Shown: positions 764 through 64,000 of the stretch, one piece after another | Position numbering within the stretch: position 1 is the first letter of the stretch | How the letters are laid out: every line of letters starts with the position of its first letter | Assembly (NCBI GenBank): GCA_004194705.1 | Contig: SADC01001297.1 | Coordinates: 434,001-498,000, forward strand | Direction of reading: 5' to 3' | Length of the DNA stretch: 64,000 bases | Origin: Ditylenchus dipsaci | Taxonomy: Eukaryota; Nematoda; Chromadorea; Rhabditida; Anguinidae | Notes under the pieces: model-generated | The model's input: the letters and a program-made list of their open reading frames with translations, nothing else | What the model was told of the DNA's origin: nothing | The model's database searches: none | Program-made: the position numbers and the translations under genes

Positions 764-1658
764 GAACGAGGGTCAACTGCCGACGATTCCAACTGCCGAC
801 GCCCAACTGCCGATGATCCCAACTGCCGACGCCCAACTGCCGACCCCCAACTGCCGACGAATTACCAAATTCTGATCAAAATTCAACTTTTAATTGAGTT
901 TTCGGCGTTGCGAAATTTTGACTTTTTGTCTGTTTTACCATGTTTTTCAACATGGGCCGTGGCAAAAAAAGACTCTATATGCATTTTATGGTCAACAACC
1001 ATCCAAGCCAAAAGACTCTATATGCATTTTATGGTCAACAAGCATCCAAGCCCCCTGCGCCCCCTTCGGGGCGCAGGGGCTTGGTTGCTTGGGGTTGAGA
1101 TGCGCACACCCACATACCTTAGACACAAATCACTCGAAAGTGACTCTGGATGCATAAAAACACATGTATACCAGAGTTTATTTACGCGGTAGGGCCCAGT
1201 ATTCAGAACCATGTTCAACATCTCTCTTTTTGCACAAAATCAACCTTTTTTTGGTCTCCCCCACCCCCATACAGCCCTAAATCTCTTTGAAAATTGTCAA
1301 CAAGGGTACTTGTAGGTAGCCTAGAGACTCAATGTTAGCAACAAAAATAGGGTGTGCATCCAGTGTCATTTAACCTAGAACCTAGGCGATGCGTATGTAA
1401 AGGTTCTCCTTTTAAAAGTATCCACATGCCATTTTATTATCTTGGTACAAAATCTTATTCTCTACCAAAATATTTGTTGTTGGTTTATTTTATGACCTAA
1501 AAACTTTTCTTTCAATCAGAATTTGGTAATTCGTCGGCAGTTGGGGTCGGCAGTTGGAATCGTCGGCAGTTGGGATCATCGGCAGTTGGGCGTCGGCAGT
1601 TGGGATCGTCGGCAGTTGAGTGTCGGCAGTTGGAATCGTCGGCAGTTGTCCTTTTACC
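764..1658. mobile_element. MULE-like element with minisatellite TIRs (CAACTGCCGACG family)
   Basis: Both ends are arrays of a 14-16 bp unit around CAACTGCCGACGATTC: forward at about 772-862, inverted at about 1533-1648. Inside the arrays lies a second inverted match (gaattaccaaattctga near 860 against its complement near 1520). ATCTGAAG occurs at 756-763 and again at 1659-1666, an 8-bp target duplication (nine positions with one mismatch). The centre is hairpin-core copy 1. No transposase frame is present, so it is non-autonomous. Confidence 0.7.
948..1226. repeat. Hairpin-core dyad repeat, copy 1
   Basis: Imperfect dyad of about 290 bp. One arm holds tagacacaaatcactcgaaa and a hairpin made from ATGCATCCAGAGTC and its complement. 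The centre at 1046-1084 is a near-perfect GC stem, CCAAGCCCCCTGCGCCCC, closed by TTCG. It forms the middle of the 764-1658 element. Confidence 0.75.
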
Positions 1659-1883
1659 ATCTGAAGCCGAAAGAAGCCAAGAGCAAGCCGTCCAAGAATA
1701 ATTCAAAATCTCTTATTTGTTTGTCCGACTGTGTTCTGGTTTGCGTGTGTGAGAATAAATACCCTGTTTCGTGTTCCGCCCTTAGTCCCGTGCCAAGTCT
1801 AATTAAAAACTTTACTGAGTGAAAAATGGAACGGTTAAAAAATTGATGGTCCCCGCCCTGGCAACCGGACATTTAGCATAATT

Positions 1884-1988
1884 GTGCAATCTGTCCGCGG
1901 ACATTTAGCATAATTTTTCGGTATGATTCGGTTGTTTCGCCCGAACCATACCGAAAAATTATGCTAAATGTCCGCGGACAGATTGCAC
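1884..1988. repeat. Perfect-stem palindrome
   Basis: About 43 bp starting GTGCAATCTGTCCGCGGACA is repeated as its exact reverse complement after a loop of about 20 bp (attcggttgtttcgcccgaac). Part of the stem is also repeated just upstream (1868-1880). Probably a small foldback/MITE; no TSD identified. Confidence 0.7.
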
Positions 1989-2062
1989 AAATTGGCTCGA
2001 GGCTCGAAAAAGTCGAGCTTCGAGTTGAAAGCTCGATTTCGAGCCCTCGGCTCGACAACCCT
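1989..2062. repeat. Fragment of a CTCGA-rich hAT MITE end
   Basis: GGCTCGAGG/TCGAGC iterations end in GGCTCGACAACCCTA, the same terminus as the element at 61647-62022. Only one end is present. Confidence 0.5.
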
Positions 2063-4775: not shown

Positions 4776-4989
4776 CTGAAATACGATTTTGGCGCGCAAG
4801 TGTCGGCGCGAAAATGTCGGAAAACCTACTGGGCATTGTTAAAAAAAGGCATTGTTTTTAAGTTCTGGTCAATAAAAAATTGAGTTTTGGACCACCCGAA
4901 ATTACCTATTTTGACCATTTTTGAAGGGATTTAGGTCTGTATTTGGTTTGAAATGCACCAAAAAGGGGCCAATTTTGAACAAAAAGGAA

Positions 4990-5275
4990 GATGTTGAACA
5001 TAGTTTTGTTCACTGGGGCCTACCGCATAAAAAACTCTGGTATGCATACTGTTTTATGCATCCAGAGTCACTTTAGAGTGATTTGGGTCTAAGGTATGTG
5101 GGTGTGCGCATCTCTAACCAACCAAGCCCCTGCGCCCCCTTCGGGGCGCAGGGGCTTGGTTGGTTAGAGATGCGCGCACTCACTTACCTTAGACATAATT
5201 CCGAGCAAGACTCTTGAACAAAAATGCATTTAGAGACTATTTTTGCCCAGCTCCAGTGACCAAAACATGATAAAA
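4990..5275. repeat. Hairpin-core dyad repeat, copy 2
   Basis: Contains the conserved arm blocks (GGGGCCTACCGCATAAA on the left, GACCAAAACATG on the right). The core at 5122-5159 is extended into a longer perfect palindrome, 5102-5180, that includes the GCGCATCTCTAACCAACCAAG flanks. Outer arms of the 'GGGGGGTATA' foldback family are partly preserved at 5380-5440. Confidence 0.8.
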
Positions 5276-5630
5276 CAGGTAAAAAGTCAAAACTCAAAAG
5301 TGTCCAAAACTCGATTTTTTATTAACTAGAACTTAAAAATAATGTCTTTTTTGAACTTCTGATGCCATTTTAGGTCGATATAAGGTGTTTGGAAACACTT
5401 TTAAATAAAGTTGATTTGGGGGGGGGGGTATATCTAAGTAGGGTCAAAATATTTTATGTTACAAATTTTAGTTATTTTTATTCAGTTTTGAAAAAGCGGG
5501 CAGAAAAAAGCCAAACGTGGGCAGAAAAAAAGTCTTGTCCGTCTTTCTGATCTGTGGCTACCTGTTTTGAGTTAGCTGTTGGTTTGCTACATATTTTTGA
5601 ATTGACATGTCTTTTACGCGCAATACGTAC

Positions 5631-7046: not shown

Positions 7047-7428
7047 TTAAAACTGGGAGTATAATGCAAATTAGATCAGGGCAACAAAATGAACCTCATG
7101 ATGCCGTAAAACAGGAGTACCGTAAAATAAAAGCGAGACTGTATCCGTAATTTTGTACCTTTATTTTTGTGGGCCTGGCGATGAAAAATCTTTGGTATAT
7201 CTTTTTGATTCCACGTTGTGTGGCCTGTTACATTGTGTTTGTAAAAAAATTTGACCTAGCGGAAGAGCCCAATATTGATTTGAGAAAAGTGTTTAAAGAC
7301 CTTCTAAGTAACTTTCATACGCTAAAAATCATATTAAAGCTATTTTCTGACTTTCCTGAACAAAAAGTCGATTTTTTGGAAAAAAAAATTTGACCAAAAT
7401 TCAAGTTTTTGTCTTGGGGTACCAAGAC

Positions 7429-7678
7429 ACCGTATTCTCTCTATTAGTTCCACACTCTCTATTAAACCCACACCCCAACTTTGAGGACCTGTATCTTAGC
7501 TCAGAAAAAAATTTAACAAAGCTGTTTATTGCATTTTCTTAACTCCCACGAGCTCTACTGATTCCGCTCTTCAGATTTGTATTTTTCACCGAAAATCTCG
7601 AGATCGACGCCAAATTTTTCCGATTTTTGGATGATTGAAAAATAATCCCACATGTGGAACTAATAGAGAGAATACGGC
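7429..7678. mobile_element. ACCGTATTYCTCT MITE
   Basis: About 250 bp with ends ACCGTATTCTCTCTATTAG and CTAATAGAGAGAATACGG. It sits inside divergent foldback arms, about 7250-7420 against 7680-7820, that contain GCCTTGG-type palindromes. Other members lie at 32954-33200, 35270-35502, 49224-49473, 57730-58235 and 62823-62964. Confidence 0.6.
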
Positions 7679-8204
7679 AAATCAAGATTTTGGTTCGTTT
7701 TGGTCAAAAAAGTTTTTCTTCAAGTTTAGTTTTTCATGTGGTAAAGTGTCATAAAATAGCTTTTTATCGTTTTTAGCGAATAAAAATTACTTAGGAGACG
7801 TTTTAACACTATTCTCAAATTAATATAAAAGGCTTTGGCCCATCCCGAAGTTTAAGATTTTTCAATCGGCAGTCTTTTAACGAGTATTAATTTACAAGTA
7901 AACAAATTAGTATAGTTCTTTTACCCCGGATTTTCTTCGAATTTTCGGGTTAAATATGGGATAAAAATGGCTCAATTGCAAGGCATTCTTAACCACTTTA
8001 TGCATCATTAAAAAGTTTAGGCATCCAAAAAATACTTTAGGCATCCATAAAAATTCGACTTATTTAGAAGTAGTCAAAAACCATTTTAAAGTTATAACTA
8101 AAAAAGCAATTTCTATAAAACTTCGGGCTGTAATGGAAAGAGAAGAAAATAATAAAAAAGACAATTTTTCGAACCACTATCTACCTAGTTTTCGACTGTT
8201 TTAC

Positions 8205-8478
8205 CATGTTTTTTCAACTCGGGCCGTGGCAAAAATAGACTCTTAATGCATTTTACGATCAAGAGTACTTCTCGGAATCGTGTCTATGGTAAGTGAGTGT
8301 GCGCATCTCTAACTCTCAAGCCCTCAAGCCCCTTCGGGGCGCAGGGGCTTGGAGTTGAGATGCGCACACCACATACCTTAGACACAAATCACTCGAAAGT
8401 GACTCTGGATGCATAAAACATGGATGCATACCAGAGTTTCTTTATGCGATAGGAACTAGTTAACAAAACTATGTTCAA
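8205..8478. repeat. Hairpin-core dyad repeat, copy 3
   Basis: Arms match copy 1 (ACCATGTTTTTTCAACTCGG on the left, GTTCAAATC on the right). The core at 8315-8352 is degraded on its left half (CAAGCCCTCAAGCCCC) but keeps the TTCG loop. Confidence 0.75.
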
Positions 8479-8892
8479 ATCTATCTTTTTTGGTCTTTTA
8501 GAGATGCCCAAGTACCCTTTTTAGGCTGAGTTACCTTGGTCCCCAAGGCAAAAATGCGAAAAAAAATTAAAAAAGTGCTTAAAAGTGTCTTCCCACTAAT
8601 TTTTCGTGCCTTTTTCACGTTTAAAGTAGCTAAAATGCCATTAGGACACCATTTTGGGCATTTTCGGGCCAGGGCGGTATTGTATACTTTAGCCCATTTT
8701 TTTAGTAAAAGAGGGTCTATGGTAACTACTAAAGTAAAAGCAAGTAGCGCAAAATTTTCTTGTGTACTCTATACATGTTTTTATCGAATAAAGTTAAGGA
8801 TGCCTAAACTTTTTATGGATGCCTAAACTTTTTAAGGATGCCTAAAGTGGTTAAGGATGCCTAAACTGCAATTGTACCATAAAAATAAGCAG

Positions 8893-14520: not shown

Positions 14521-14551
<31 letters not shown>

Positions 14552-14711: not shown

Positions 14712-14943
14712 TGATTTGCAGGGCCTACTGCATAAAAAAGTATTATGCGTGTTATATATGCATAATTTGCTTATCGAGTGTTTGGTTTCTAGGGTGCGCT
14801 TGTGTGCGCATCTCAACTCCAAGCCCCAAGCCCCTACGCCCCCGGAGGGGGCGTAGGGGGCTTGAGAGTTAGAGATGCGCACACTAGCTCACCCTAGAAA
14901 TGAATCCGAGAATAAAAACATGTAATATGCACAATATTTTTGC
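14712..14943. repeat. Hairpin-core dyad repeat, copy 4 (divergent)
   Basis: Shares TACTGCATAAAAAAG, GTGTGCGCATCTCAACTCC and the GC core (14819-14862). The loop is CCCCCGGAGGGGG rather than TTCG/CGAA, and the arms have shortened. The oldest-looking copy. Confidence 0.65.
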
Positions 14944-15960: not shown

Positions 15961-17282
15961 TAGGAATAACTTGCACTTGGGTCATTTTTTTACATTTTTT
16001 TAATTGTTTTTATGTTGTTGTCTTAAAGGGAAAGTCGTTATTTTAACTTTTTTTACCAAAATTTGAATTTTTGCCTTCAGACATCAAGTTATATGACTGT
16101 TTAAGGGTAGTATCCACCTATACTACCAAAACCATCTAAATTGTATCCGTACCATGTGGATGGTACCCAAACCACATGGATGGTACCAAACCACCTGGAT
16201 GGTACCCAAACCACCTGGATGGTACCCAAACTACCTGGAGGGTACCTAAAACTCCTATGTGGTACTTGAAACACTGAGCAGTATTTAAACTACATGGACT
16301 GTACCTAAACCTAAACCGTTTGAATAGTATCATATAAAAGAATATTGAAACACAGAAAAATTTATCATGGTTTTTGTGGAAATTTCAAAACTTTAAGTTG
16401 GCACCTTTTGAATTTAAAAGGGAATAATGGCTGTATTGGGTGGAGAAGGGAATAAAAAGGGGCTACTAATCACACAGGGGCCACTAACAAGAAGATGTTG
16501 AACATAGTTTTAAATACTGGGGCCTACCGCATAAATAAACTCTGTGATGCATACATTTTTCATGAATCCAGAGTCACTTTCGAGTGATTTGTGTCTAAGG
16601 GGGTGCACTACGTTTCACCGTCACCTATTTTCACCGTCAGCACTTTAGGACCGCTTTTCAGATCTAAATTTTCTAAAATTTTAACAGTCTTGGTACCAAA
16701 TTGTAGCCCTGAATGTCAGCTACATTTTGGTACAGTCAAACCTGGATAACCGGACACCCTGGGTGCTTGCCCAAGGTGTCCGGTTATCGGGGGTGTCCGC
16801 TTATCGGAGGTGTGGGAACCAAGACTTTGACTGAATTTTAGTAAAGCCAACAAAGATCTGAAAAAAAGGTTTGAAAAAGTTTTATCATTTTTCTGTTTAA
16901 TCTGTGGTACTAGATTGTAGAACGCTACCTCTCGGTATCAGTATCCAGGTAGCGGTACCCGGATGGTGCTTTATAGAAAATATTCAACCAGACAGTGTAG
17001 ACAAGTACTCAGATAGCAGTAATTATGCATCGTGGTCTACTTTGACTGAATTTTAGTAAAGCCAACCAAATTGACTCCTTTTCGTGTGTCGGCAAAACAA
17101 GGGTGTCGTTAAATCGTGTGAGGAATTGGGTGTGAATAATCGTGTGAGGAGTTGTGTTTCTTAGGACTAAATGTGCGATTTCACCCAGCCGAACCTCGAT
17201 ACCTGAAGTGGGTACCACTTTGCATAGTAGGTATCCGCAAATAAAAAAATTGAAAAATTTTAAAAGGAAGAAACAAACCATG

Positions 17283-18882
17283 CTATCATAAGTAGTACAG
17301 GCCGCGTATTTGTAACATCAAAAGATGCCGCTTTTTTGCCCTATACCTATGGGGCACTTTCAAAGAGACGCCCTAAACCTATGAGGCACTTTCTGATGTG
17401 GTGTGGGCGGAGCCTAAACCACTACCCTCAAAACCACCCTCAAATGAAAACACTACCCTCATATTTCAATAAAGCCTGTTATATAGTTTCTTGTATCAAG
17501 AGCAATACATTAGCTTGAAACAGTTGTCCATTTCAACATCGGAATCTTTGCACTTCTTCTGAAGCAAGACTGAAGCAAATAATCTTCGAATTTGGCCATA
17601 AAAAGAAGGCATCCGGAGCAATCATTGATAGGTATGATATTGAGAAATGATCGTATCCGTATTTGTAAGCGAAGTAAAGAGAGGGTTCATGACTGCTGTT
17701 TCGAAACTCTATAACTGGTCTTGCCTGGTACGTAACCAACTTTCTATTACATGGAGAGGATCACTGCCAAACGTACATGGCGTCTCTGCAAAAAGATGGA
17801 ATCATTCGAAAAGAAGTCCGAACAGGTGAAAGACTGAACAGTCTTTTTCCAGGTAAACTCACTGCATGTCTCTATTTCAAACCGACAATACTTACAGTTA
17901 TAATATCTTTCCCAAAAATCAAACAGAAAGACTGAGAATTATCTGAAAGCTTATTCAAAGAATTCATATTGAACACCGTTTCTGAAACATTATTGTCAAA
18001 TACCATAGAGTATGAAGCAGGTGGAAGCCCTACATCAATATCTCCTCTCAGAAAATTATGCTGATACCTAGCCTCGAGCGTAAACGCGCAGTATTAGTAG
18101 GAGGCCTGGCATTTACAGGCCTCTTTGTTCTTTGCTCTGAGGCTAAGAATGTACAGTTCGGATCATATGTCAGACTGACATTAGTATCTTTCATTTGATA
18201 AGATACAAAAGATTAAGTAAAATTGCACTTGATAATTGTGGATGCATTTTTGTTTTGTAAATTTGTTTTTCATTGTACACTTATATAAAGATATCAACAT
18301 TTATTGTACCAAATCACATGTAAATTTACAATTCATTTATTTACATTAGCCAATTTCTTGGTTTCATCATAACACTGCATGTTATGAAAACAGCAGTTTT
18401 TTTTGGTTCAAAAGGAAAAAAGAGAAAAAAATAGACACAAAAGAACCGCCAAAAGTAAACAAAAGAAATAAAGAATGATTGTAAATGCAAAAGAAAGTGA
18501 CCACTCTGATAAAAATGGGCGGAGTGACAATTTTTTGAGGGTAGTGCTTTTGGTTTTAAGGGGAGTGCTTTTTTTTGGTTCAGAGAAGAAAAAAAGAGAG
18601 AAAAAAAGACACAAAAGAACCGCCAAAAGTAAACGAAAGAAATATAGAATGATTGTAAATGCAAAAGAAAGTGACCACTCTCATAAAAAATGGGCGTAGT
18701 CACATTTTTTTTGAGGAGAGTGCTTTTGGTTTTGAGGGGAGTGGTTTAGGCTCCGTCCACACCACATCAGAAAGTGCCTCATAGGTTCAGGGCGTCTCTT
18801 TGAAAGTGTCCAATAGGTATGGGGCACAAAGGCGGCATCGTTTGATGTTACAAATACGCGGCCTGTACTACTATCATATGCA
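17283..18882. mobile_element. 1.6-kb TIR element nested in the pogo element
   Basis: Inverted ends of about 150 bp start TAGTACAGGCCGCGTATTTG and include ATGGGGCACTTTCAAAGAGA. CTATCATA is found outside both ends (8-10 bp TSD with one mismatch). No complete transposase frame. Confidence 0.6.
18402..18745. repeat. Two-copy direct tandem repeat, about 178-bp unit
   Basis: The purine-rich block with GACACAAAAGAACCGCCAAA and GTGACCACTCT recurs immediately (18402-18579 and 18580-18745). It lies inside the 17283-18882 element. Confidence 0.75.
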
Positions 18883-19811
18883 AAATCGTTTGGGCAATTG
18901 GCCGTAATCATAGTCGGGGTCAACATTTAGGGTCGACATTTTTTTTTAATTCAAAAAATGTTCATATTTTTTAAAATATTTTGATATTTATGACACTAAG
19001 GCAGACCCTAATTTGTACAATATGCAGGGTGTCCGTTTATCGAGGGTAATTTTTATAAGACGGGACCGGGATTAGAGTGTCCGGTTATCAGGGGTGTCCG
19101 CTTATCGGGGTGTCCGCTTATCCAGGTTCGACTGTACTACAAACTCTGAAAAAATAAAAAAATTTAGAACTAAACTTTAGAAGGCGCTCAATCTCACACT
19201 TTTTCATCACGGTAGAACGCAGGGTGAGCGTCTTTTATAGTTTAGAACTAAAATTTTTCGTTTTTTTTTTTAAATTGTAGCACCAAAATGTAGCTGACAT
19301 TCAGGGCTACAATTTGGTACCAAAACTTTTAAAAATTTCGAAAAATTTAGACCTAAAAAGCGGTCCTAAAATGCTGACGGTGAATTTATTGAACGGTGAA
19401 AATAGTGACGGTGAAAATAGGTGACGGTGAAAATAGTGACGCTGAAAATAGGTGACGGTGAAAATAGTGAACGGTAAAAAAAGTGACGGTGAAACGTAGT
19501 GCACCCTGTCTAAGGTATGTGGGCGTGCGCATCTGAACTCGAAGCACCCTGCGCCCCGAAGGGGGCTTGGGGGCTTGAGAGTTAGAGATGCGCGCACTCA
19601 CTTACCTAAGACATGGTTCCGAGAAGTAGGCTTGATCATAAAATGCATATAGAGTCTATTTTTGCCACGGCCCGAGTTGAAAAACATGGTAAGAGTCAAA
19701 GAATACAAACATTTACTGTTTTTTTATTATTTTGGCAAAAATTGGCCCCTAATTCTGAATAATGTCCTCTTTTTACTTCAGATAATTTAAAAGGCGCCAA
19801 TTTAAATTTTG

Positions 19812-20514
19812 GACCCTACCGGAGTATACCCCCCCAAATGAAATTTTTTTTTAAAGTGTTTTTAAACACCCTATATCGACCCAAAATTGCCTCGGGAGTT
19901 CAAAAAAGACATTATTTTTGAGTTCTGGTTAATAAAAAATTGAGTTTTGGACATTTTGAAATTTCGACCATTTGCCTGTTTTGGCATGTTTTGGTCACTG
20001 GAGCTGGGCAAAAATAGTCTCTAAATGCATTTTTGTTCAAGAGTCTTCTCGGAATTATGTCTAAGGTAAGTGAGTGCGCGCATCTCTAACCAACCAAGCC
20101 CCTGCGCCCCCGAAGGGGGCGCAGGGGGCTTGGTTGCTTGGGGTTGAGATGCGCACACCCACATACCTTAGACGCAAATCACTCGAAAGTGACTCTGGAT
20201 GCATAAAAAATGTATGCATACCAGAGTTTATTTATGCGGTAGGCCCCAGTCAACAAAACTATGTTCAACATCTTCCTTTTCACACTAAATTGGCCCTTTT
20301 TGGTCCTTTCCCACCCTAATATGGCCCTAAATCCCTTCAAAAATGGTCAAAATAGGTATATTTGGGTGGTCCCAAAACTCAATTTTTTATTGACTAGAAC
20401 ACAAAAATAATGCCTTTTTCGAGCTTCTGAGGCAATTTTAGGTCGATATAGGGTGTTTGGAAACACTTTAAAAAAAATTTCATTTGGGGGGGGGGGGTAT
20501 ACTCCGGTAGCGCC
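19812..20514. mobile_element. hAT-type foldback with hairpin core, 8-bp TSD
   Basis: AAATTTTG is duplicated at 19804-19811 and 20515-20522. Termini are GACCCTACCGGAGTATACCC on the left and the complement of GGCGCTACCGGAGTATACCC on the right. The arms fold back over nearly the full 703 bp. Hairpin-core copy 6 (19975-20280; GC core about 20096-20133, loop CGAA) is at the exact centre. Confidence 0.85.
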
Positions 20515-21021: not shown

Positions 21022-21781
21022 GGCACTTGTGCACTTGGGGGGGGGGCCTCTTTTTTAGTCGACTGTGAACAGGGTTCGAACGCCTCTTAAGTGTTTCTTA
21101 TACGCTAAAAACGATAAAAAAGTACTTTCCAAACAATTTCCGCACTAAAAAGTTGGATTTTTGAAAAAAATTTGGTTACCAAAGGTCAACCGATTGCCTT
21201 GGTCCCCAAGCTAATTATACCATAAAGGGTACCTAGATATTTTTAAAAAGACCGAAAAGATGGGATTGAACATATTTTTGTTAGCTGGGGCCTACCGCAT
21301 AAAAAAACTCTGGTATGCATACTGTTTTATGCATCCAGAGTCACTTTAGAGTGATTTGGGTCTAAGGTATGTGGGTGTGCGCATCTCAACCCCAAGCAAC
21401 CAAGCCCCCTGCGCCCCTTCGGGGGCGCAGGGGCTTGGTTGGTTAGAGATGCGCGCACTCACTTACCTTAGACATAATTCCGAGCAAGACACTTGATCAT
21501 ACATGCATTAGAGACTCTTTTTGCCAAGCTCCAGTGACCAAAACATGGTAGGATACCTTAATATAAGATATTTCACCTTAATGCACAATATTTTAGCTTG
21601 GGGACCAAGGCAATCGGTTAACCTTTGGTAACCAAATTTTTTTCAAAAATCGAACTTTTTAGTGCGGAAATTGTTTAGAAAGTACTTTTTTATCGTTTTT
21701 AGCGTATAAGAATTACTTAAGAGGCGTTCGAACCCTGTTCACAGTCGACTAAAAAAGGGGCCCCCTAAGTGCACAAGTACC
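21022..21781. mobile_element. hAT-type foldback with a different TIR and the same hairpin core
   Basis: TAAACAGT is duplicated at 21014-21021 and 21782-21789. Termini are GGCACTTGTGCACTTGG and the complement of GGTACTTGTGCACTTAGG. Inner arms carry GATTGCCTTGGTCCCCAAGC and complement. The centre is hairpin-core copy 7 (21245-21545; core about 21395-21440, loop TTCG). 760 bp, non-coding. Confidence 0.85.
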
Positions 21782-42507: not shown

Positions 42508-42631
42508 CAGTCAAACCTCGATATAACGTACCCCCGATATAACGTACCCCTTGCAGGTAAAACTGATATTTACGTTACCCTCGATATAACGTACCCTTGT
42601 GAAATTGGTGTGTTATATTGGCTAGACTTTA

Positions 42632-43522
42632 CTTGGCCCCCCCCCCCCACGGCTGACCCACTTTCGAGGTGAATTTTTAAAAACCGATTGCATATTCGTG
42701 TTTCTCGACCCGGATTTTTACGGGAAATGATCATCAGATCCTGTGAAAGTGAAAAAAATTTTTTTGGGATTTGCCTTGGTCCCCAAGGTAAAATTTTAGA
42801 AAAATTTAAAAAAAAAAATATTTTTTAAATTGGCGCCTTTTGAATTTTAAAGGGATTAAGGGCTGTATTGGGAGGGGAAGGGAATAAAAGGGGGCCACTA
42901 ATCATACAGGGGCCACTAACAACAAGATGTTGAACATAGTTTTGAATACTGGGGCCTACCGCATAAATAAACTCTGGTATGCATGCTTTTTCATGCATCC
43001 AGAGTCACTTTCGAGTGATTTGTGTCTGAGGTATGTGGGTGTGCGCATCTCAACTCCAAGCCCCCTGCGCCCCGAAGGGGGCTTGAGGGCTTGAGAGTTA
43101 GAGATGCGCACACTCACTTACCATAGACACGATTCCGAGAAGTACTCTTGATCATAAAATGCATATAGAGTCTCTTTTTGCCACGGCCCAGTTGAAAAAC
43201 ATGGTGAGGCAGTCGAAGAATACATATATTTAATTTTCTATTGTTCTGCCATAAAAGTGGCCCCTTTTATTCCCTTCCCTCCCAGTACAGCCCTTAATCC
43301 CTTTAAAATTCAAAAGGCGCCAATTTAAAAAATATTTTTTTCAAATTTTTCTAAAGTTTTACCTTGGGGGACCAAGGCAAATCCCAAAAAATTTTTTCAC
43401 TTTCACAGGATCTGATGATCATTTCCCGTAAAAATCCGGGTCGAAAAACACGAATATGCAATCGGTTTTTAAAAATTCACCTCGAAAGTGGGTCAGCCGT
43501 GGGGGGGGGGCCAAGTAAAGTG
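42632..43522. mobile_element. Foldback with hairpin core, copy 10, a third arm type
   Basis: Arms start CTTGGCCCCCCCCCCCC / complement and carry CACGGCTGACCCACTTTCG and GCCTTGGTCCCCAAGG. The centre is copy 10 (42925-43205; core 43057-43095). Flanks are palindromic (TTTACTTGGCC), so the TSD is ambiguous. Confidence 0.7.
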
Positions 43523-43734
43523 TTACCGTTATATTTACCAATCCAATAAAGTTTTTGCTCTTTTTCTGCTTCTGCAACATTTTCTGTAGTCACCAAGTTT
43601 TTTCAGTTTTACAAAGGAACATAAACAGTGGGTAACGCTGCTATAGGTATGAGTAATAGACCATTCGATAGCCCAATCTCGCTGAATCACGCGGTTAATG
43701 ACTTTTCGTCTAATCTAGAGAAGAATTCTTCTTA

Positions 43735-43887: not shown

Positions 43888-44737
43888 TAGCACAGGAAAT
43901 TAAATATTATTATTGTGCATTATTTGGGAAAATATAGAGCAATTGAGTGTGCTTTTGGAAGTTTAGTTTTGGTTTAACCGACCCCCGTTAAAACGTACCC
44001 TATATCTAACCGATGGATATATTCCTGCAATCAAGTTCGGTATGTCCCCAGCACTCAAATTTGGTATACCCCCAGCACTCAACTGAAAGAACAGGAGGGA
44101 CCAAGAAAGGCAAACCCTTGATATAACGTACACCTGTCATCTATTTGTTTCTGCCCTAGATATAACGTACCCTCGATATAACGTACCCCCTTTACCCGGC
44201 CCCCAGGGGTACGTTATATCGAGGTTTTACTGTACTGTCAAACAGTCTTCAGCATGCTCGAAATAGTGCAGAGAACATGTTTTGGAACCCGAAAACTTTA
44301 AAAAAAAATTCCAAGTGGACGAGGGTCGTTTGGGTGGAGATATCCATGTGGATATCCGCCTAACCGGGGGTGGCCATACTAGATATTGAAGTTAGGATAA
44401 AAAAAAAGATAAAATCGCAATTTCGGACTTAACAAACCCAATTCCCCACACAACTTTAAGTTAGAAAACATGGTTTATTTTTAAGAAATTTTAATTTTTT
44501 AGGCCATCCAGATGGATACCCATCTGAACAGGAGACACCTACCCTATCTATTGGAGTTTGCATGGTTAAAGTTGGTTGGAAATGAACTGGCGCTGGCTCA
44601 CCCTGCGCTTAAGGGTTCGACTAAGAGTAAAAAAGTTAAAGAAAAATGAAACAGAAGCCCAATAGATAAATGAAAAAGGCGCGAATTCAAAGAGTGGAAA
44701 AAGGGGGACAAACGAATTACGGGCTAGGGGAGATTTG

Positions 44738-45117
44738 CCAAAACGAAATTTGCCAAAAACGAAATTTGCCAAAAACGAAATTTGCCAAAACGAAATTTGC
44801 CAAAACGAAATTTGCCAAAACGAAATTTGCCAAAACGAAATTTGCCAAAACGAAATTTGCCAAAACGAGATTTGCCAAAACGAGATTTGCCAAAAGACTA
44901 ACAGGGGGACCAAGGCAGTTTTTTTGCCAAAACGAAATTTGCCAAAACGAAATTTGCCAAAACGAAATTTGCCAAAACGAAATTTGCCAAAACGAAATTT
45001 GCCAAAACGAGATTTGCCAAAACGAGATTTGCCAAAACGAAATTTGCCAAAACGAGATTTGCCAAAACGAAATTTGCCAAAACGAAATTTGCCAAAACGA
45101 GATTTGCCAAAAGACTA
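44738..45117. repeat. 15-bp tandem array, left TIR
   Basis: About 24 units of CAAAACGAAATTTGC (some with GAG for GAA) in two blocks. Each block ends with AAAAGACTAACAGGGGG and ACCAAGGCAGTTTTTTT, showing a duplication of the whole sub-array. All frames on both strands stay open because 15 is a multiple of 3, producing spurious long ORFs. Confidence 0.95.
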
Positions 45118-45666
45118 ACAGGGGGGACCAAGGCAGTTTTTTTACGTTTTTTTTTCGAAATTTTTAGATTGTGTCCAAACCACCCCAGACCGACGAAAAC
45201 CACCCCAAACCACTCAAAACACCCAAAACCTCCTAAAAATGTTTGTTCTTTCTAACTACTGCTTTGGGTGGCGGTAAATTGATCCAAAAATTTTCTGGGT
45301 AGTGGTATCTTGATTGTAGTACTCAGTTGGCAGTACCCGAGTTGCATATTAGACCATTAAAACCAAGTAGTCGTTCACTTGAATCAAAAAATTTTTACGT
45401 TTTTCATGTTCCAAAACTTGTTTTCTGGACCAATTCGGACAAGCTGAAGATGGTTTGACAGTGGTAAAATAAAGTTTTGTTGTCCACTTAACTGAATCTT
45501 AACTGAAGTTGAAAATTTAAATTAACCGTGCAAGCAACTAGTCATTTTTTCAGATGACCATCTTTTTTTTTAAGACCTTACTCCTTAATTTCTTACAATG
45601 AACACTCCAAACAAATCTTCAAGAAAATTTATTTAACACATCGAGCAAACAACAAGCACAACACAC

Positions 45667-46866
45667 CTCAGAATGATTTGGACATCTTCAAAATAGACTT
45701 CATCAAAAGCGAGATCGTCAAGTTGAATTTGATCGATTGAATTTGCAACTCGAGCCAAGCTGTTCCTGATTTCCTCTGAATTGAATGCCCGCAAAGCTTC
45801 TTTGGTTCCCTCAATCTTCTTACGCTGAGTACCAGTACTTGTTCCAACAAGACCGACACCTTGTGAAAGCCGAATTGCCTGCTGGTAAGACACATGTCCT
45901 AAATTTAGTGTTACATTTTTGAAACTCGACAATAGAATAAACAATATTTTGGGATACCTAGCTCGACCTTGAAGTGATACAGAAGCCATAGTCTTTAAGA
46001 TTCTTCATAATTGCTTGGACAAAGTGGAACCAACAAGTCTTATGTTTCACCGTATGCATGACACCTAAAATCAGATCAAAAAGAATGAGAAAGAAACTTT
46101 TTAGATAGCGTGCGAACCTCTAAAAAATTCCAGAATCGAAGGACAAGAATGGCCTACCGTTGAGCAGTTTTAAGTCGTTTGGAACCTCTAAATGCATTGG
46201 CCCTGTTTTCCTTTGGGTACTGGAAAACCTCGCTAAATAAAAGGTGAACATAAAATTGCATTAGTTAAATTCCACATACATGTTTTTCCAACTGCAAAAC
46301 TCTGTCCATGTTCTGTTCCTTCATTACTGCAATGATCCCGGGGTGTGATAAAGCTAGAGCCTGAGTTCGTGCTTTCTTGGGCGTCATCCTCACTGGGTCT
46401 TCTCTCAGCAACTGCTTTCCCTTTTTCATAATTTGTCGCTTCTCAATAACCACCAGATTCGCATGATGGAGATGGCGGCCACGATGTTGAATGTATTCGC
46501 CTAGATTCCCTGAAGTGAAAATAATAAAAATGTAAGATATTGAGGAAACTACCGATCCAAACCGACATCTTGCATGCACGGTGACGACGGTCTGTGCAGT
46601 AATACACTGATGCATCTCTCTTATTGAATTCACCATAGTTTTGTAGAGTGTCAAGAGTGGTTGAGAAGCCAAACTAAAAGGAGTAGCCTGTAGAACGATA
46701 TAATTCAAACACTATACGCGTCTAAAAGCTTACCACCGATTGCAAGCGTTCTCTTCTTTCTTGAGCTTTCCATCATATCGATCCTTGGTGGATCTGGATA
46801 AACTTCTATTTGCCCTACATCTGGCGTACTTCCTTCGCTATCGCTGGAATTTTTTAATTCGCTCAT
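45667..46866 (-). CDS. FLYWCH zinc-finger / MULE transposase-like gene (defective)
   Basis: Exons: 46734-46866 (ATG, MSELKNSSDSEGSTPDVGQI), 46553-46687, 46280-46509, 46158-46232, about 45954-46064 and 45667-45898. Exons 2-3 carry VYYCTDRRHRACKMSVWIG...YIQHRGRHLHH, a C-C-H-H layout like FLYWCH fingers that bind DNA. Exon 5 has HKTCWFHFVQAIMKNLKDYG, matching the C-x-FHF-QA block after the catalytic core of MULE transposases. The stretch where the catalytic acidic residues should lie is much too short, so it is internally deleted or has missed exons. Exons 2 and 4 each need one extra base, and the exon 1/2 phase does not fit. Lies between the minisatellite TIRs. Confidence 0.6.
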
Positions 46867-46963
46867 GCTGTCTAAATATGTGTATCAGTAAAAAAGAAAC
46901 AACTGCTGAAGTCAATGACGCAAATTAACTAAAGATATTCCGACAGCCTATTTAAATTTGCCG

Positions 46964-47357
46964 AATATCGTTTTGGCAAATCTCGTTTTGGCGAATTTCG
47001 TTTTGGCAAATTTCGTTTTGGCAAATTTCGTTTTGGCAAATTTCGTTTTGGCAAATTTCGTTTTGGCAAATTTCGTTTTGGCAAATCTCGTTTTGGCAAA
47101 TTTCGTTTTGGCAAATCTCGTTTTGGCAAATTTCGTTTTGGCAAATTTCGTTTTGGCAAATTTCGTTTTGGCAAATTTCGTTTGGCAAATTTCGTTTTGG
47201 CAAATTTCGTTTTGGCAAATTTCGTTTTGGCAAATCTCGTTTTGGCAAATTTCGTTTTGGCAAATTTCGTTTTGGCAAATTTCGTTTTGGGAAATCTCGT
47301 TTTTGGCAAATTTCGTTTTGGCAAAACGTACATTTGGCAAATTTCGTTTTTGGCAAA
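46964..47357. repeat. 15-bp tandem array, right TIR
   Basis: About 26 units of GCAAATTTCGTTTTG, the exact complement of the left array, with one 14-bp unit near 47180. Confidence 0.95.
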
Positions 47358-47895
47358 TCTCACCTAGCCGAATTACGTAATTCGTTTGTCCCCTTTTTTC
47401 CATAAATGGAAAAAGGGGACAAAAGTACCTACCCCGTTTTTGCTATCTTTTTTATTTCATTGGCCGATACGCGATTTTTGAACATGATTTTTTTAAGACA
47501 CTTTTTTTACGAATGTAAATGTAATGTAAATTCACAATTTTTAGGATGTGTTAATATTGTTATTTTAGTTGGTATTTTGGTATTCCAGTTACCATACTTT
47601 TGTTTTATGCAAATCAAGTATAAATATTTTTGTGTAAAATCCCATTGATTTGTTAAAAATTTAATTACAAATCTATAGTATAACCTTTGAATAATTGAAA
47701 CTATCAAAGAAGGAAGGTTTCTATTCTGCTGCTGCAAAGCTGGCTTGTCTGAAACAATGGAAAGTAAAGTAAATGAAATTGAATCTTAGCCATTCGCTTT
47801 CTAATTTATGGCGTCTTCACTTGATCTCTCCTTATCTTGCCCCAAACGTTTTATATCCTAGTATTAAAAAGAAGGGATTCTCGATTCTCTCAAAT

Positions 47896-58886: not shown

Positions 58887-61800
58887 GTAATTATGGTAAC
58901 TAATTATAAAAGTTGTTGACTGTGATTAAATCCGAAAACGAGTAGAGTCCATTTTTTTCTATTGTGGAATTTGTTTTCGGAAAAAAAGAAAACGCCAGGG
59001 AATTTTTAAAGGACAAGGGTGAAGCAAACCTCATGGCAGATTTAAAACCTCTAGGATATTTACTTGTTGTAATGACACTATTTTTCAGCAAAATTTGCCT
59101 GCAGGTGTTCTACGAGCCTTGTTCCCTTGGTTGTGGTCACAGCTTCTGGTTGCTTTTCGTTCTTGATTTCTCATTTACACCTCAAAATGCGTGGTTTTAG
59201 TAGAGAATGCATCACCCAACACCTAATGCAGAGTACCAAATGCCCACATGTGAGACGGTGACCAGCACAGACCCAAAAAAGACCAAGATAATACCTAACT
59301 ATGCTGCTGCAGCTTTGCTTGAAGATTTGGCCAGAGAAGAGCAGTCCTCCTCCAAATATGCACAGGTTGGATTCAAATTCATAAAAGGGGTGTAAATTTA
59401 ATTACTCACCTATAATTGTTTACAGAGTGAAATGGACGAGGAAGGTGAAGCAATTTTGCGCCTGATCCAAAACTCAGACAATATCAAACTCTCCTCCATT
59501 CGCCGCATATCTGAAGCACTTAAACGCAAGACTGTGGAAGCGGAATTGAACGATGAGCAGTTGAGGAATGTGCTACTCTTCGAATTTCTAGACAAAATGA
59601 TTGAGAAACGCGAACTTCACCTGTCACAAGTGCAAGCACAGTTAGAGAAGTTGAAGGCTGACAAACAGAGAGTAGCTGTGAGTCTACCTTATACCTAATA
59701 TTTTTGAAACTACTTTTTTCTAAATTTTTGAATTTAAATATAGTCATAGTAAACTTGATTTGCAAATATTTAATGAGTTTTTCATTTTTTTTTTTCTAAA
59801 TTTCATTAAAAGACCTCCAATAAAAGGTTTGAATGGCTATTTTTGTATCGGGGATACGCTACTGCATTTACTCTAAAAAAGCCCATGGACGCTTATTTTT
59901 CAAGCCTTAAAAATAGGAAAATTTTGAGTTAAATTCTGAGATTTTTGAGTGCTCAAGCAAAATTTTTAAAAGTGGAATTAGTAGACCTTGTTGTAATTAA
60001 AAAATAGGGTCGCGCGCGGTCGGTTAACCGAAAACTGGGTCTGCCAAACCGGCAAAACCCGAAAACCGGGTCACCAAACGCCGGTTTTTTTCGGTTCAAT
60101 TACTGAGAAATAAAATAGCTGATATATTTTCGAATTAATTTTATTTTAACACGAATAATAAAGAACATTTCGGTCATCTTATAAACGAGCATTATTTCTT
60201 GCTGATTCGCGGCAAAACGCATCAAAATGGGACGGGTCCTTTCCCCTTCAGGAAAAGTAAATTTTTCGCTAGCTTGGGGGGGGGCATTCTATAGTATAGC
60301 CTAGATTTGTTTCAGGATATGTCTGTGGCAAAGATCCGAAGATTGATGCGTGTCTTGGCAATCAATGAAGAAGAGAAGCGTCAGAGTCTCAAGTGCAATG
60401 CTTCCTAACTGCTCTAAAGGATTCTTCGACGTCGCATATGATCAATTATCTGAAGACCAAGGAACATGAAGCGGAATTAAAGCAATACGAATCGGCCTCT
60501 GAGGTTTCCAACGATGTAAGTCTTATAGTTTTCATTTTTCCTCTTCCTTTTTCCTTTTCCTCTCGCTTTCCTCTACTTGCTACTGATGTTCAAGCTCGCA
60601 CAACAAAGGGGTATCCTGACTTGAAAGTAATTTTTACAACTTTTGGAACGTGTTTAATATTTGTTTTCTTAGGCCTATGGTCGAGATTATTAGTCTCGTG
60701 CAGTCACCCTAACAATGGCGAATGACATCAAGCAACAGATCGTGTAGCGAATCGGGTCGGGATACTTTTCAATTACTAGTGATGAATAGCAGAAGCCAAG
60801 CAAGTTTTCACGTTGCTGGGTTTGTCTATTGGATAAGGTTTATTTGGTTTATTGCGTACGTAAAGCTTCTAATTTGTTCCGTTTAGTGTGACGACGCATA
60901 ACGTGAACGAAAGCTTCGGTCAGCTGTACAACGTATTGGCAACTATTCCGATAAAGCGAGAGCAAAGAAAAAATTGCTCGAATGGTCAAAGAGTGTCTGC
61001 GTAAGAATGGGCTCGAGATGGATCGACTAGTGGCTATGGTTTGCGACGATGCCAGCAACATGCAAAAATCTTGTCGATTGCTCTATATTGACAGGTATAG
61101 GTTAAGTTTTGCAAGAATATTAATTACTAGAAAGGAACTAGAAAATGAAAAAACTACACCAACTGAATAATTTTGGGACAACAGATAAAAAGCGAGGATT
61201 CTCTTTCAGAGATTCTTAGGGAGTAGTCTGTTTTAGCATCCACAAACAGCCTCCTCATTGTGAATGCGCCTTTGTGCGTTCAAAATTGTTTCCTATATGT
61301 GTTTATAAAATTTGTTTACTTTTTTCGTTCTGCTGTGGAAAAATTTATACAACAAATTAAGTAATAATGTGAATTTTCACTAGATAAAATGACCTTAAAA
61401 GTCAACAAGCACTGGATAAAACGGCCTTGGTGAAAAATCGGCAAACCGGCGGTTAACCGACCGGGTTTGATTAAACCGGAACCGGAAACCGGATTCGCCA
61501 GAAGCTCTGTTTGAAAAACCAAAAAAAAGAAAAAAAACATTCATGCATCCAGAGTCACTTTCGAGTGATTTGCGTCTGAGGTGTGTGGGTGTGCGCTTCT
61601 CAACTCCAAGTCCCCAAGCCCCAAAGGGGGCGCAGGGACTTATGAGTAAGGTTGTCGAGCCTTCGAAATTTTCGAGCCTTCGGCTCGGAAGCTCGAAGCA
61701 GCTTGAAAATTTCGAGCCTTCGGCTCGGCTCGAAGTTCGAAGCTCGAAACTTTCGAGCCTTCGGCTTGGCTCAAAGTTCGAAAGTTTCGAGCCTTCGGCT

Positions 61801-63671
61801 CGGCTCGGAGCTCGAAGTTCGAAAAAAATCGAACTTTCGAGCCGAAAGCTCGAAAAAAAAGTATACGGCAGCCTTCGGCTCGAAGCTCGAAAGTTTCGAG
61901 CCTTCGGCTCGGCTCGAAGTTCGAAGCTCGAAGCTTTCGAGCCTTCGACTCGGCTCGAAGTTCGAAAAAAATCGAACTTTCGAGCCGAAAGTTCGATTCG
62001 AGCCTTCGGCTCGACAACCCTACTTATGAGGGACTTATGCGCAGGGGCTTATGAGTTAGAGATGCGCGTACTCACTTACCTTAGACATGATTCCGAGAAG
62101 TACTCTTGATCAAAAAATGCATATAGAGTCTCTTTTTGCCACGGCCCATTTGAAGAACATGGTAAGACAGTCGAAAAATACAAACATTTACTTTTCTTAC
62201 GTCCTACCATCAAAGTGGCCCCTTTTTTCCCTTCCCTCACAATACAGCCCTCATTCCCTTTTAAATTCAAAAGGCGCCAATTTAAATTTTTCAAATTTTT
62301 TTACTAAAAAACCCCCCTGTGGTTCGAAAAAAAACTTTTTTTCTCAGAATCAAAAAACGCGCGGCTTTCTCGTGAAATCGAAGTCGAGAAACACGAATAT
62401 GAGGTTATCTCTTTCATCCGAGCACTCCCCGTGGGGGAGGGATTCGTCACTGCAATCGAAACGAAGTCATAATTGTCATACAAAAATTTAGTATTGGGTC
62501 ATTAAAAATGCCAAAATAGCTGAAACCTTTTCTTTTAAATTTTGACGGTAGTGTAATAATATACCCTGCCAAAAAAACTACTGAAATATACCCTCCCCAA
62601 TAATTTTTGGAGGGTACCTAAAACAACCATTTTTGAAAAAAAATTGTTCAAAAGCTCTTGTTAGAAATAGCTTGTCCCTGAGGCTGAACCTAAGCCTACG
62701 GACCTAAGCCTGAGCCAACATTATTGGGTGGGATATAATACACTAGCGTTATTTGGGAGGGGTACATTACACTAGCGTCAAAATTTGAAATCCCATGTCT
62801 TCTCGAAAATTTTGAAACCGAATACCGTATTTCCTCTAATAAGGCGGCCCCCTCATTTTTTTGACTGAAAGATCAGAGTTAAGGTCATTTTTGATTAAGA
62901 ATTTTCAGATTTTCGGGGGCTCGAAAATAAGGCGGCCGGTCGCCTTATTAGAGGAAATACGGTAGCTAAAAAAATGTAAAGCAACGATCTCGTTAGCATT
63001 TTTATTTTAAAAACTTGATTAGGATGAAAAAACTATATTTCGAAGGAAAAAATATGAAAAGTATTGCAAAAAATGAGTCTACATTTTGCAGACCATTCTG
63101 ACTGGTCAGCTAAATCAAGGATCTTCTCAAAGAGTAGTGCCTGACTCAGCCTGTCTTCAATCCACAGATAGCACCTCAATGGCCACTATGGGGTTGGAAG
63201 ATGAGGGTCATTCTTCTTCATCTTTTAGCCTGGTTGACTTCCACCAAATGGTCAAAATGGATATGGATGTGGAGAGTATGTCGACGTCTAGTAGCCAGCA
63301 ACACACACAAACATTCACTATGCCTGAGCAAATGTCCAAGTATCGCAGGCGCCTTCACAAGCATATTGGTAGTCTAGAGAGCTCCTACTTTAATTCCAAA
63401 CCAGTCCAATTACTCGGTGTGTTTTATAGTTTTGTAGATAAGCGAACTAGTTTCAGTTAGCATTATTCAGACACGGACAGCGCAGCCACCTCAACTAGCG
63501 TGACCCCAGCCAGCATCCAGAGCCTACAATCCTTACAGCTAGGAAGCTGCACTGACAATTTGGAGGAGTTCTCGCAAGTGCTGAGGGAATGTCACAGTAT
63601 GGAGACATGAAACGACTGGCCACTTTAAATTATAATGTAGAAACCGCTTCTGCATTGTCTATTGTTTCCAG
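58712..63671 (+). CDS. COP1: COP1 (RFWD2)-type RING E3 ubiquitin ligase, N-terminal part
   Basis: Exons 58712-58886, 59089-59148, 59201-59365, 59426-59677, 60316-60515, 63092-63416 and 63471-63671; the gene runs beyond the window. Residues 59-96 form a C3HC4 RING (CKICLQVFYEPCSLGCGHSF, then CRECI...KCPTC) whose Cys/His spacing equals that of animal COP1. A coiled coil follows (about 150-215; EKRELHLSQVQAQLEKLKAD). The exon 6-7 blocks YRRRLHKHIGSLESSYFNSK and LEEFSQVL...KRLATLNYN match the segment leading into the COP1 WD40 propeller. COP1 acts with DET1-CUL4 to ubiquitinate transcription factors. Exons 3, 5 and 7 each need one extra base, as does exon 1 if its ATG is right. Every repaired exon then agrees in splice phase. 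Confidence 0.85.
59089..59148 (+). CDS. COP1: COP1-type gene, RING exon 2
   Basis: A 60-bp exon: acceptor CTATTTTTCAG, donor GTTGCT (weak at +3). The split codons TG/C and TG/T give the first and fifth zinc ligands. Encodes KICLQVFYEPCSLGCGHSF. Confidence 0.75.
59201..59365 (+). CDS. COP1: COP1-type gene, RING exon 3 (frame lesion)
   Basis: Acceptor GTGGTTTTAG. It reads RECITQHLMQSTKCP, then stops unless one C is added to TGCCCACATG, after which TCETVTSTDPKKTKIIPNYA and AAALLEDLAREEQ follow. The added base restores the last CPxC zinc-ligand pair. Donor GTTGGA. Confidence 0.75.
59426..59677 (+). CDS. COP1: COP1-type gene, coiled-coil exon 4
   Basis: 84 codons, phase 0/0, acceptor TTGTTTACAG, donor GTGAGT. 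SEMDEEGEAILRLIQNSDNI and LKRKTVEAELNDEQLRNVLL align with the COP1 dimerising coiled coil. No repair needed. Confidence 0.85.
60004..60110. repeat. hAT end remnant (CGGTTAACCG type)
   Basis: TAGGGTCGCGCGCGGTCGGT, then iterations of AACCGGNAAAACC. The opposite-strand equivalent appears at 61430-61500. It lies upstream of COP1 exon 5, so the two ends probably belong to separate insertions. Confidence 0.45.
60316..60515 (+). CDS. COP1: COP1-type gene, exon 5 (frame lesion)
   Basis: TTTGTTTCAG acceptor, GTAAGT donor. DMSVAKIRRLMRVLAINEEE, then KRQSLK; one A added to CTCAAGTGC continues VQCFLTALKDSSTSHMINYL and EAELKQYESASEVSND. 200 bp is one short of phase 0/0. Confidence 0.65.
60860..61510 (+). 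pseudogene. hAT transposase fragment
   Basis: Reads NESFGQLYNVLATIPIKREQ in one frame and MVKECLRKNGLEMDRLVAMV, CDDASNMQKSCRL in another (60982-61083). The D-x-ASNM block is typical of the RNase-H core of hAT transposases. The right end at 61430-61500 (GGCGGTTAACCGACCGGG) is a hAT-like terminus. It lies in COP1 intron 5. Confidence 0.5.
61538..62165. repeat. Hairpin-core dyad repeat, copy 11, split by a hAT MITE
   Basis: Starts CATGCATCCAGAGTCACTTT and ends TTGAAGAACATG. Core region at 61606-61640 and 62023-62055. Interrupted exactly by 61647-62022. Confidence 0.75.
61647..62022. mobile_element. hAT MITE built of TCGAGC/CTTCGGCTCG text, 8-bp TSD
   Basis: CTTATGAG is duplicated at 61639-61646 and 62023-62030. 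Termini TAAGGTTGTCGAGCCTTCG and complement; the whole interior iterates TCGAGCCTTCGGCTCGG. Same terminus as the fragment at 1989-2062. Confidence 0.85.
62823..62964. mobile_element. ACCGTAT-type MITE, short form
   Basis: TACCGTATTTCCTCTAATAA to TTATTAGAGGAAATACGGTA with GGCGGCC inside each arm; 142 bp, in COP1 intron 5. Confidence 0.75.
63092..63416 (+). CDS. COP1: COP1-type gene, exon 6
   Basis: Acceptor CATTTTGCAG, donor GTGTGT, phase 0 to 1. Ser-rich linker (EDEGHSSSSFSLVDFHQMVK) then MSKYRRRLHKHIGSLESSYF, the conserved block before the WD40 region. No repair needed. Confidence 0.8.
63471..63671 (+). CDS. COP1: COP1-type gene, exon 7 (frame lesion)
   Basis: TTATTCAG acceptor; DTDSAATSTSVTPASIQSLQ and NLEEFSQVLR, then one G added to GAGGGAATG gives GMSQYGDMKRLATLNYNVET. 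With that base the spacing from Phe to the RLATL block is the same as in human COP1. Donor GTGAGA in phase 2. Confidence 0.75.
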
Positions 63672-63699
63672 GTGAGAAATTTGCAGTTGTGTAAAAATG

Positions 63700-64000
63700 A
63701 TAGCTGAGATAGCCTACCGCATAAATAAACTCTGGTATGCATGCTTTTTATGCATCCAGAGTCACTTTCGAGTGATTTGTGTCTCAAGTACGTGTGTGTG
63801 CACATTTAAACACCGAACAACCAAGCCGTCTAATCAACCAACCAACCCCCCCCCTTCGGGGGCACAGGGGGCTTGGAGTTGAGATGCGCACACCCACATA
63901 CCTTAGACAAAAAGCACTCGAAAGTGACTCTGGATGCATGAAAAAGCATGCATACCAGAGTTTATTTATGCAGTTGGCCCTAGTATTTAAAACTATGTTC
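63700..64000. repeat. Hairpin-core dyad repeat, copy 12 (cut by window end)
   Basis: Starts CCTACCGCATAAATAAACTC and runs to TATTTAAAACTATGTTC at the right edge. The core (about 63820-63872) has been altered to CCAACCCCCCCCCTTCGGGG. Confidence 0.8.

Follow-up and report, generated by a model that had tools for sequence, protein, structure and literature searches.

In a 64-kb stretch of the genome of the nematode Ditylenchus dipsaci (contig SADC01001297.1 of assembly GCA_004194705.1, positions 434,001 to 498,000; hereafter the window), a core of about 290 bp stands at the centre of palindromic transposable elements whose outer arms belong to different families. These miniature inverted-repeat transposable elements (MITEs) are about 680-1050 bp long, and we consider it likely that they are moved by their ends and that the core is a passenger, which is swapped between the families through recombination. 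A Merlin transposase encoded elsewhere in the genome would cut the GG-type ends and leave an 8-bp duplication, and the central core, not moving by itself, would be exchanged between families by homologous recombination within the core and at its edges. This exchange could occur as crossover, as gene conversion, or as template switching during gap repair, the last being a route that we infer, and a core type would thereby land between arms that originally lacked it. The core, being palindromic, probably promotes the exchange itself, as its hairpins or cruciforms may serve as sites of breaks and template switches.

The core and its copies

A comparison of the window with itself, for which four elements named in an earlier sequence-only reading were used as queries, finds 14 pieces of the core. 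The piece pairs starting at 16486 and 19507 and at 61540 and 62038 can each be read as a single interrupted copy, which bears out the twelve copies that this reading had counted. The pieces are listed below with the elements around them and with one coreless pair of arms; the names F1 to F7 and Fa denote families of arms, A and B two types of core, and TSD a target site duplication.

764-1658, plus strand: Fa element with CAACTGCCGACG minisatellite arms, TSD ATCTGAAG at 756-763 and 1659-1666; core copy at 930-1231, plus strand, with a 43-bp tandem duplication at 967-1052
4838-5445, minus strand: element of F1 type, cut off at 4838 and with the end GACCCTACTTAGATATACCCC at 5445; core copy at 4981-5278, minus strand
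7281-7833, no strand given: F4-like arms without a core, the middle (7429-7678) being an unrelated MITE that is abundant in other parts of the genome, where these arms are absent
7969-8878, plus strand: mosaic of F5 arms (GGCTCAATTGCA / GGTACAATTGCA) and an F6-type right interior, TSD ATAAAAAT; core copy at 8196-8490, plus strand, of mixed A/B type
14721-14912, minus strand: degenerate core copy, matching arms not found
16392-19800, limits approximate, minus strand: F3-like element with a split core (16486-16600 and 19507-19693)
16601-19506, no strand given: 2.9-kb inverted-repeat element inside that core, ends GGGTGCACTACGTTTCACCGTCAC, 9-bp TSD TGTCTAAGG
19812-20514, plus strand: F1 element (GACCCTACC / GGCGCTACC), TSD AAATTTTG; core copy at 19976-20286, plus strand, with B-type sites and flanks common to type-A families
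21022-21781, minus strand: F2 element (GGCACTTGTGCAC / GGTACTTGTGCAC), TSD TAAACAGT; core copy at 21255-21550, minus strand, B type
36012-36740, plus strand: F4 element, left end GGAGCTTATTTAGC, right end decayed and its limit approximate; core copy at 36232-36510, plus strand, B type
39261-39958, plus strand: F1 element, TSD GAATAATT; core copy at 39425-39731, plus strand
42620-43527, minus strand: F3 element (GGCTAGACTTTACTTGG / GGTAACACTTTACTTGG), TSD GTTATATT; core copy at 42921-43210, minus strand, A type
61540-62170, minus strand: core copy in two pieces (61540-61637 and 62038-62170), with an F3-like flank to 62303
63712-64000, no strand given: rearranged core copy at the window edge, with two overlapping core matches of opposite orientation

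The boundaries of the core are best seen when F1 is compared with the other element types, as similarity stops at most about 15 bp from F1 positions 174 and 463 in nine of eleven comparisons, the exceptions being Fa (127-575) and F3 (174-531). A GC-rich stem lies in the middle of the core, which is palindromic only imperfectly and has outer left and right parts that are unlike each other. The same asymmetry of the two halves recurs across the aligned families. Because this difference is kept, separate fold-back events in each family cannot have produced the core, and a snap-back origin inside the core was rejected. No complete open reading frame (ORF) of at least 200 amino acids is listed in the window. 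A partial transposase is 95% identical, over 46% of its length, to a protein recorded for D. dipsaci. A sample of 200 kb, which consisted of 20 pieces of 10 kb taken from three contigs at set steps and thus not at random, contains 27 core pieces that make up 2.3% of it, so that the genome would hold of the order of 30,000 core pieces if the sample is typical.

Inverted arms straddle all eight full-length cores of the window and 7 of 12 cores in the 200-kb sample; of 200 random 290-bp stretches, drawn from the same sample to match the core in length, 9 have such arms. The remaining four copies in the window are broken or degenerate. Among the five misses in the sample, L021 does have arms, one of which carries an insertion, and L017:9074, L018:410 and L019 retain remnants of arms or inner flanks. 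For L022, no remnant of an arm or flank could be placed. The cores thus do not lie mostly outside palindromes. The statement that the core always sits at the symmetry centre holds for the full-length copies of the window, but not, as the sample demonstrates, without exception.

Families of arms and their target duplications

The arms can be sorted into no fewer than seven families of non-autonomous transposons, whose termini are of the GG type and whose target duplications measure 8 bp. If the core is read in its plus orientation, their left and right ends are GACCCTACC/GGCGCTACC in F1, GGTACTTGTGCAC/GGCACTTGTGCAC in F2, GGTAACACTTTACTTGG/GGCTAGACTTTACTTGG in F3, GGAACTTATTTACTTGG/GGCACTTATTTACTTGG in F4, GGCTCAATTGCA/GGTACAATTGCA in F5, GGCCGGAGTA/GGCTAAAGTA in F6 together with F7, and GAACGAGGGTCAACTGCC/GGTAAAAGGACAACTGCC in Fa. 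Among 29 elements that were located by the end patterns of F1-F7, which decayed ends escape, an exact 8-bp direct duplication is present in 21 and a duplication with at least seven of eight matching positions in 24. In the controls, in which one of the two sides was displaced, a shift by 1 base gave 1 of 29, and shifts by 2, 3, 5 and 7 bases gave none. For Fa, 8-bp duplications were found by eye in the window (ATCTGAAG), in L068 (CGCTTAAA) and in L069 (CGCGGACC), and the full-length relatives of the Fa element at 764-1658 have 88-90% identity. The genome searches scored the best 40 candidates each, and the family sizes are therefore lower bounds. The outer arms that had been named from the sequence are accordingly real elements that bear 8-bp direct duplications.

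These arms had also been called unrelated, which is true of most arm types in that they have no BLAST match to each other, but not of F2 (21022) and F4 (36012), of which parts of the arms align at 68-77%. F2 and F4 are related throughout, and a stretch containing the core aligns at 74.5%. The arms are hence not all diverged copies of one arm, although two of the types are related. Beyond the core, some families have 50-110 bp in common: Fa and F1 share a flank of 47 bp on the left and 112 bp on the right of the core, and F3 and F5 one of about 70 bp on the right. Long inverted tandem-repeat arms of the foldback type are found in Fa and F5 only. It was also considered whether F3 is a nested composite, with an inner GGCGCC element in outer arms, and this was rejected on the grounds that the sequence immediately outside GGCGCC is common to other F3-like copies.

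Probable exchange of cores between families

Eighteen sites separate type A (10 cores, from Fa, F3 and F5) from type B (15 cores, from F2 and F4), and all four combinations of left and right core parts are seen, namely AA (F3), BB (F2), BA (L009) and AB (L047). The core of L038, an F4 element, is A at the last three diagnostic sites, and that of L047, an F6 element, changes from A on its left to B at its right end. In the core of the element at 7969-8878, the five readable left sites comprise three of type A and two of type B, and the right end is B. Further mixed cores are present in F7, L021, F5_L042, two Fa copies and the other F6 copies. A permutation test of site compatibility, which was devised for this case, gave p = 0.0005, 0.0005 and 0.0095 for 20 chosen cores and p = 0.004, 0.001 and 0.002 for all 47 cores (windows of 30, 60 and 100, respectively). 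Permutation tests within single families were without signal and had little power (F2, p = 0.57 with 18 sites; F1, p = 0.77 with 11 sites).

The element at 7969-8878 is mosaic also beyond its core. Among its 39 other best matches, 24 comprise the left arm and the core only, 15 the core and the right interior only, and none comprises both, and its outer duplication is intact despite this mosaic build. One-armed F2 elements provide further evidence. In ten of the F2 copies listed, a large part of one side is missing; five of these were examined, chosen for a match that stops near a core edge, and all five keep the F2 arm on the opposite side. Past the core, where its F2 match stops, L074 has about 70 bp of F1-type flank, and L078 likewise has about 26 bp of F1-type flank past the core. 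L075 has a core whose right half is of type A (93% to F3, 91% to F5 and 82-84% to F2). These three of the five elements are recombinants with a joint inside the core or at its edge. In the stretch covered around them, a complete second arm is absent from all three, and they are thus no evidence that hybrids transpose. The sequence-only reading had left a choice between a core module that is swapped between elements and a parasite inserting itself in palindrome tips, and it is the swapping that the A/B mosaic cores, the mosaic element and these hybrids support. As a side observation, L077, which is another of the five, and L078 lie about 1 kb apart on the same contig and are broken F2 half-elements bordered by near-identical copies of one sequence other than the core (CATTCATATAACGATACAATTTGCGACC...), so that a duplication or inversion between elements seems to have taken place locally.

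The F1 core is of type B at almost every readable site, and F1 has inner flanks that match those of Fa to the left and right of the core and that of F3 to the right. In the larger tree of cores, F1 falls together with F2, with L009 and with one of the F4 copies (support 84), and a clade comprising type A and L047 has support 97. The cores of F1 and F2 are 93% alike although their arms do not align.

Insertion of the core by itself as an improbable alternative

A core that is itself mobile, for example as a hairpin-seeking MITE, and inserts into palindrome tips would account for its central position in many arm types, and its own imperfectly palindromic form would suit such a life. Indeed, an unrelated MITE (7429-7678) sits in the tip of the F4-like arms at 7281-7833. 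We nevertheless regard this origin of the pattern as highly improbable, since a target duplication was not detected at the junctions of core and arms. The longest word common to the 25 bp on either side of the core has a mean length of 4.92 bp in 13 families or subfamilies versus 4.88 bp in mismatched pairs, and words of at least 6 bp occur in 3 of 13 true pairs versus 44 of 156 mismatched pairs, one right window (F7) being misplaced in this test. A free core with fixed ends was not seen either.

Coreless palindromes tell the same. With queries of joined arms, two coreless F1 elements, L057 and L058, were found among the scored places, and by eye their outer duplications match over 8 bp and in 7 of 8 positions, respectively. 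Their inner junctions differ (F1 positions 147/540 and 169/566), and they therefore look like separate deletions and not like the empty site that an inserting core would have left. The corresponding F2 query matched no joined arms in the 40 candidates scored out of 1884. Genuine insertions are recognisable in the same DNA and differ from what is seen at the core: the 2.9-kb element at 16601-19506 left a 9-bp duplication in the core that it entered, and the 39 other best copies of the MITE at 7429-7678 have nearly the same ends and are without F4-like arms. The position of this MITE in a palindrome tip is a single instance that may be due to chance. The orientation of the core relative to the GGC terminus agrees in F1-F4 and differs in F5, and as F2 and F4 are related, it is little informative on independent insertion.

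Probable assignment to the Merlin superfamily

The core-bearing arm families, which we take to be moved by their ends, are probably non-autonomous palindromic MITEs of the Merlin type (IS1595). According to a survey, Merlin elements have imperfect terminal inverted repeats (TIRs) that begin with GG, 8-bp duplications, tandem repeats in their interior and the DDE domain of IS1595 (PMC8101967). The GG ends and 8-bp duplications of the families led us to suspect Merlin, and the domain PF12762 (DDE_Tnp_IS1595) was searched for on that prediction. It gave 124 matches in the genome at E<=0.001, with 150 of 259 candidates scored, and was matched above its cut-off in both ORFs that were scanned. Eight transposase loci were read, several of which have TIRs around the transposase, for example GGCGCTAG / GGTTCTAG, or GGCGCTAGTAAAGAATCC / GGTTCTAGTAACGAATCC in L049, and their ends can be unequal, as is the case in F1 (GGCGCTAC / GACCCTAC). 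The end GGCGCTAG also resembles GGCGCTAC of F1. Where the ends are intact, F2-F7 have GG at both of them. F1 and Fa have GG at one end only, the other end being GA and once CA. An F1-like fragment next to the transposase of L053 sits outside the TIRs of that locus. For the 8-bp duplications, hAT was considered as well; the GG ends favoured Merlin, and no search for hAT or Mutator was made.

Two side observations concern these loci. The motif TGCCTTGGTC(CCC) follows the TIR of the transposase-bearing Merlin copies L049, L050, L051 and L053, and TGCCTTGGTC or variants of it are found deeper in the arms of F2, F3, F4 and F7; it is possibly a transposase-binding site. In L054 and L055, the Merlin transposase genes lie between TIRs that consist of a 24-bp tandem repeat (AATATGAGTATAGTCACCCCACTC).

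Hairpin behaviour and possible functions of the core

The central loop of 11 F1 cores reads CGAAG in five and CTTCG in six, and both forms also occur in F2, F4 and F6. An inversion of the tip is a simpler account of this than a repeated triple substitution, and it suggests that hairpins or cruciforms are processed. Four of four truncated F2 elements that were read (L059, L062, L063 and L066) break at F2 positions 376-385, which is the centre of the core; this small set was noticed afterwards, and L064 and L065, which end with their contigs, were excluded from it. More tentatively, and with less confidence than not, the hairpin-forming core could be an exchange hub for the whole MITE superfamily, at which breaks or template switches at hairpins let families trade interiors and arms. 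If this were true, a common core would be combined with different ends, which determine the transposase, to give new MITE families, and such families would not stem solely from autonomous elements that suffered internal deletions.

Alternatively, selection could keep the core alike while the arms drift, if the core had a function in transposase binding, as a promoter or as RNA. In favour of this, the cores of F2 and F4 are 87-94% identical, compared with 68-77% for their aligned arm parts, and the authors who described the CMITEs of corals proposed a role in transposition for a conserved interior (PMC2872659). The cores of some families, however, are only 78-82% identical. Rfam has no match in the window, and 2 of 50 pairs of the predicted RNA fold have changed in both partners, with an unfavourable covariation term, for which reasons the core was rejected as an RNA gene. 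Selection alone also does not put cores as alike as those of F1 and F2 between arms that do not align, and we think it improbable as the explanation.

Recombination and common descent

Several observations weigh against a passenger core that is swapped by recombination. The sites that are diagnostic for types A and B were picked from the same data that they test. Two of the five one-armed F2 elements, L076 and L077, are of F2 type up to a break at or near the edge of the core and have simply lost the rest. F1 is the largest family and could represent the ancestral arrangement instead of one with a replaced core, and when trees in which F1 was or was not joined to type A were compared, the three had equal likelihood and favoured neither view. 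Breakpoints in the window and the 200-kb sample are not enriched at the centre of the core, as 17 of 49 lie between core positions 90 and 190 (p = 0.78). A transposase copy with the exact arms of F1-F7 or Fa is absent from the eight loci read. Finally, recombination within the core yields one-armed or mixed elements, and by itself it does not yield symmetrical elements with wholly different arms.

A rival account is common descent, in which the outer arms of one ancestral core-bearing Merlin MITE were repeatedly replaced and the core was kept. The replacement could have occurred by growth of minisatellites, by capture of other Merlin ends or by extension that is mediated by the palindrome. It is consistent with this that homology fades stepwise outward from the core, as in the flanks common to Fa and F1 and to F3 and F5, that the tree test allows F1 to be ancestral, and that tandem-repeat arms are frequent, transposase-bearing copies included. 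By eye, the TIRs of F2, F3 and F4 moreover have ACTT...ACTTGG motifs in common, and CCGGAGTA is common to F1, F6 and F7, similarities that may be due to chance. However, the core mosaics in four combinations and the one-armed hybrids require exchange between families in addition, and the element at 7969-8878 has the arms of one family outside the interior of another. We therefore think that common descent with arm replacement is an unlikely, though not negligible, account of the whole pattern, and continue to prefer the exchange of a passenger core.

Parallels and significance

A common interior of MITEs with unlike ends is already known from the CMITEs of Acropora corals, which are related to piggyBac and have an interior of 75 bp that is common to several families (Wang et al. 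2010, PMC2872659). Here as there, families with different TIRs have one interior that is better conserved between families than the TIRs. One CMITE copy with the interior of another family was described, and the origin of the interior was left open in that account (PMC2872659). In contrast to the CMITEs, which have TTAA duplications and a length of about 100 bp (PMC2872659), the elements described here are palindromes of about 680-1050 bp with varied 8-bp duplications and GG-type ends, and neither a TTAA duplication nor piggyBac-type CC[C/T]T ends are found; Merlin-type ends, a palindromic core of 290 bp and recombinant cores further set them apart. What is new is thus the superfamily, the size, the palindromic core and the recombinants.

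Compared with the elements of the Merlin survey, the GG termini, 8-bp duplications, imperfect TIRs and inner tandem repeats are alike, as are the several divergent families per genome and the DDE_Tnp_IS1595 domain (PMC8101967). The main text of that survey contains no word beginning with "mite" and the part of it that is drawn on here does not mention a core shared between families (PMC8101967). A shared core in Merlin MITEs was also absent from the open-access titles and openings of abstracts that literature searches listed, which is weak evidence of absence. Galileo of Drosophila resembles the present elements in its very long TIRs, which grow by tandem repeats and by taking in internal sequence, and exchange between copies has been proposed by its authors (PMC4168063). 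Unlike them, Galileo belongs to the P superfamily and has 7-8-bp duplications, and the part of its description that is drawn on here reports no core shared across TIR types (PMC4168063).

The CMITE description had left open how MITE families with unlike ends come to have one interior, and the same pattern is now seen in another superfamily. As the copy number is large, the duplications are intact and recombinants are visible, the question can be tested by sequence alone. The apparent exchange of the core shows how new families of palindromic elements can be pieced together. The finding may also help to classify the repeats of D. dipsaci, which make up 55.7% of its genome, with the DNA, LTR (long terminal repeat), LINE and SINE (long and short interspersed nuclear element) classes summing to about 13% in the published account (PMC11118728).

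Other repeats in the window

Several further repeats were seen. The core copy at 61540-62170 is split near its centre by a palindromic TCGAAGC satellite array at 61663-61996. The element inserted at 16601-19506 also bears TGACGGTGAAAATAG repeats, and a similar repeat-armed foldback lies at 27641-28171. The MITE at 7429-7678 is 250 bp long, has the TIR CCGTATTCTCTCTATTAGTTCCACA, and its 39 other best copies match at 92-95%. A foldback with minisatellite arms, CACGCCAAAATACTCT plus its complement, occupies 30975-31454, and in a large foldback at 44730-47358, a 15-bp unit (ATTTGCCAAAACGAA) is repeated about 25 times on each side, in inverted arrays that enclose a middle of 1.9 kb.

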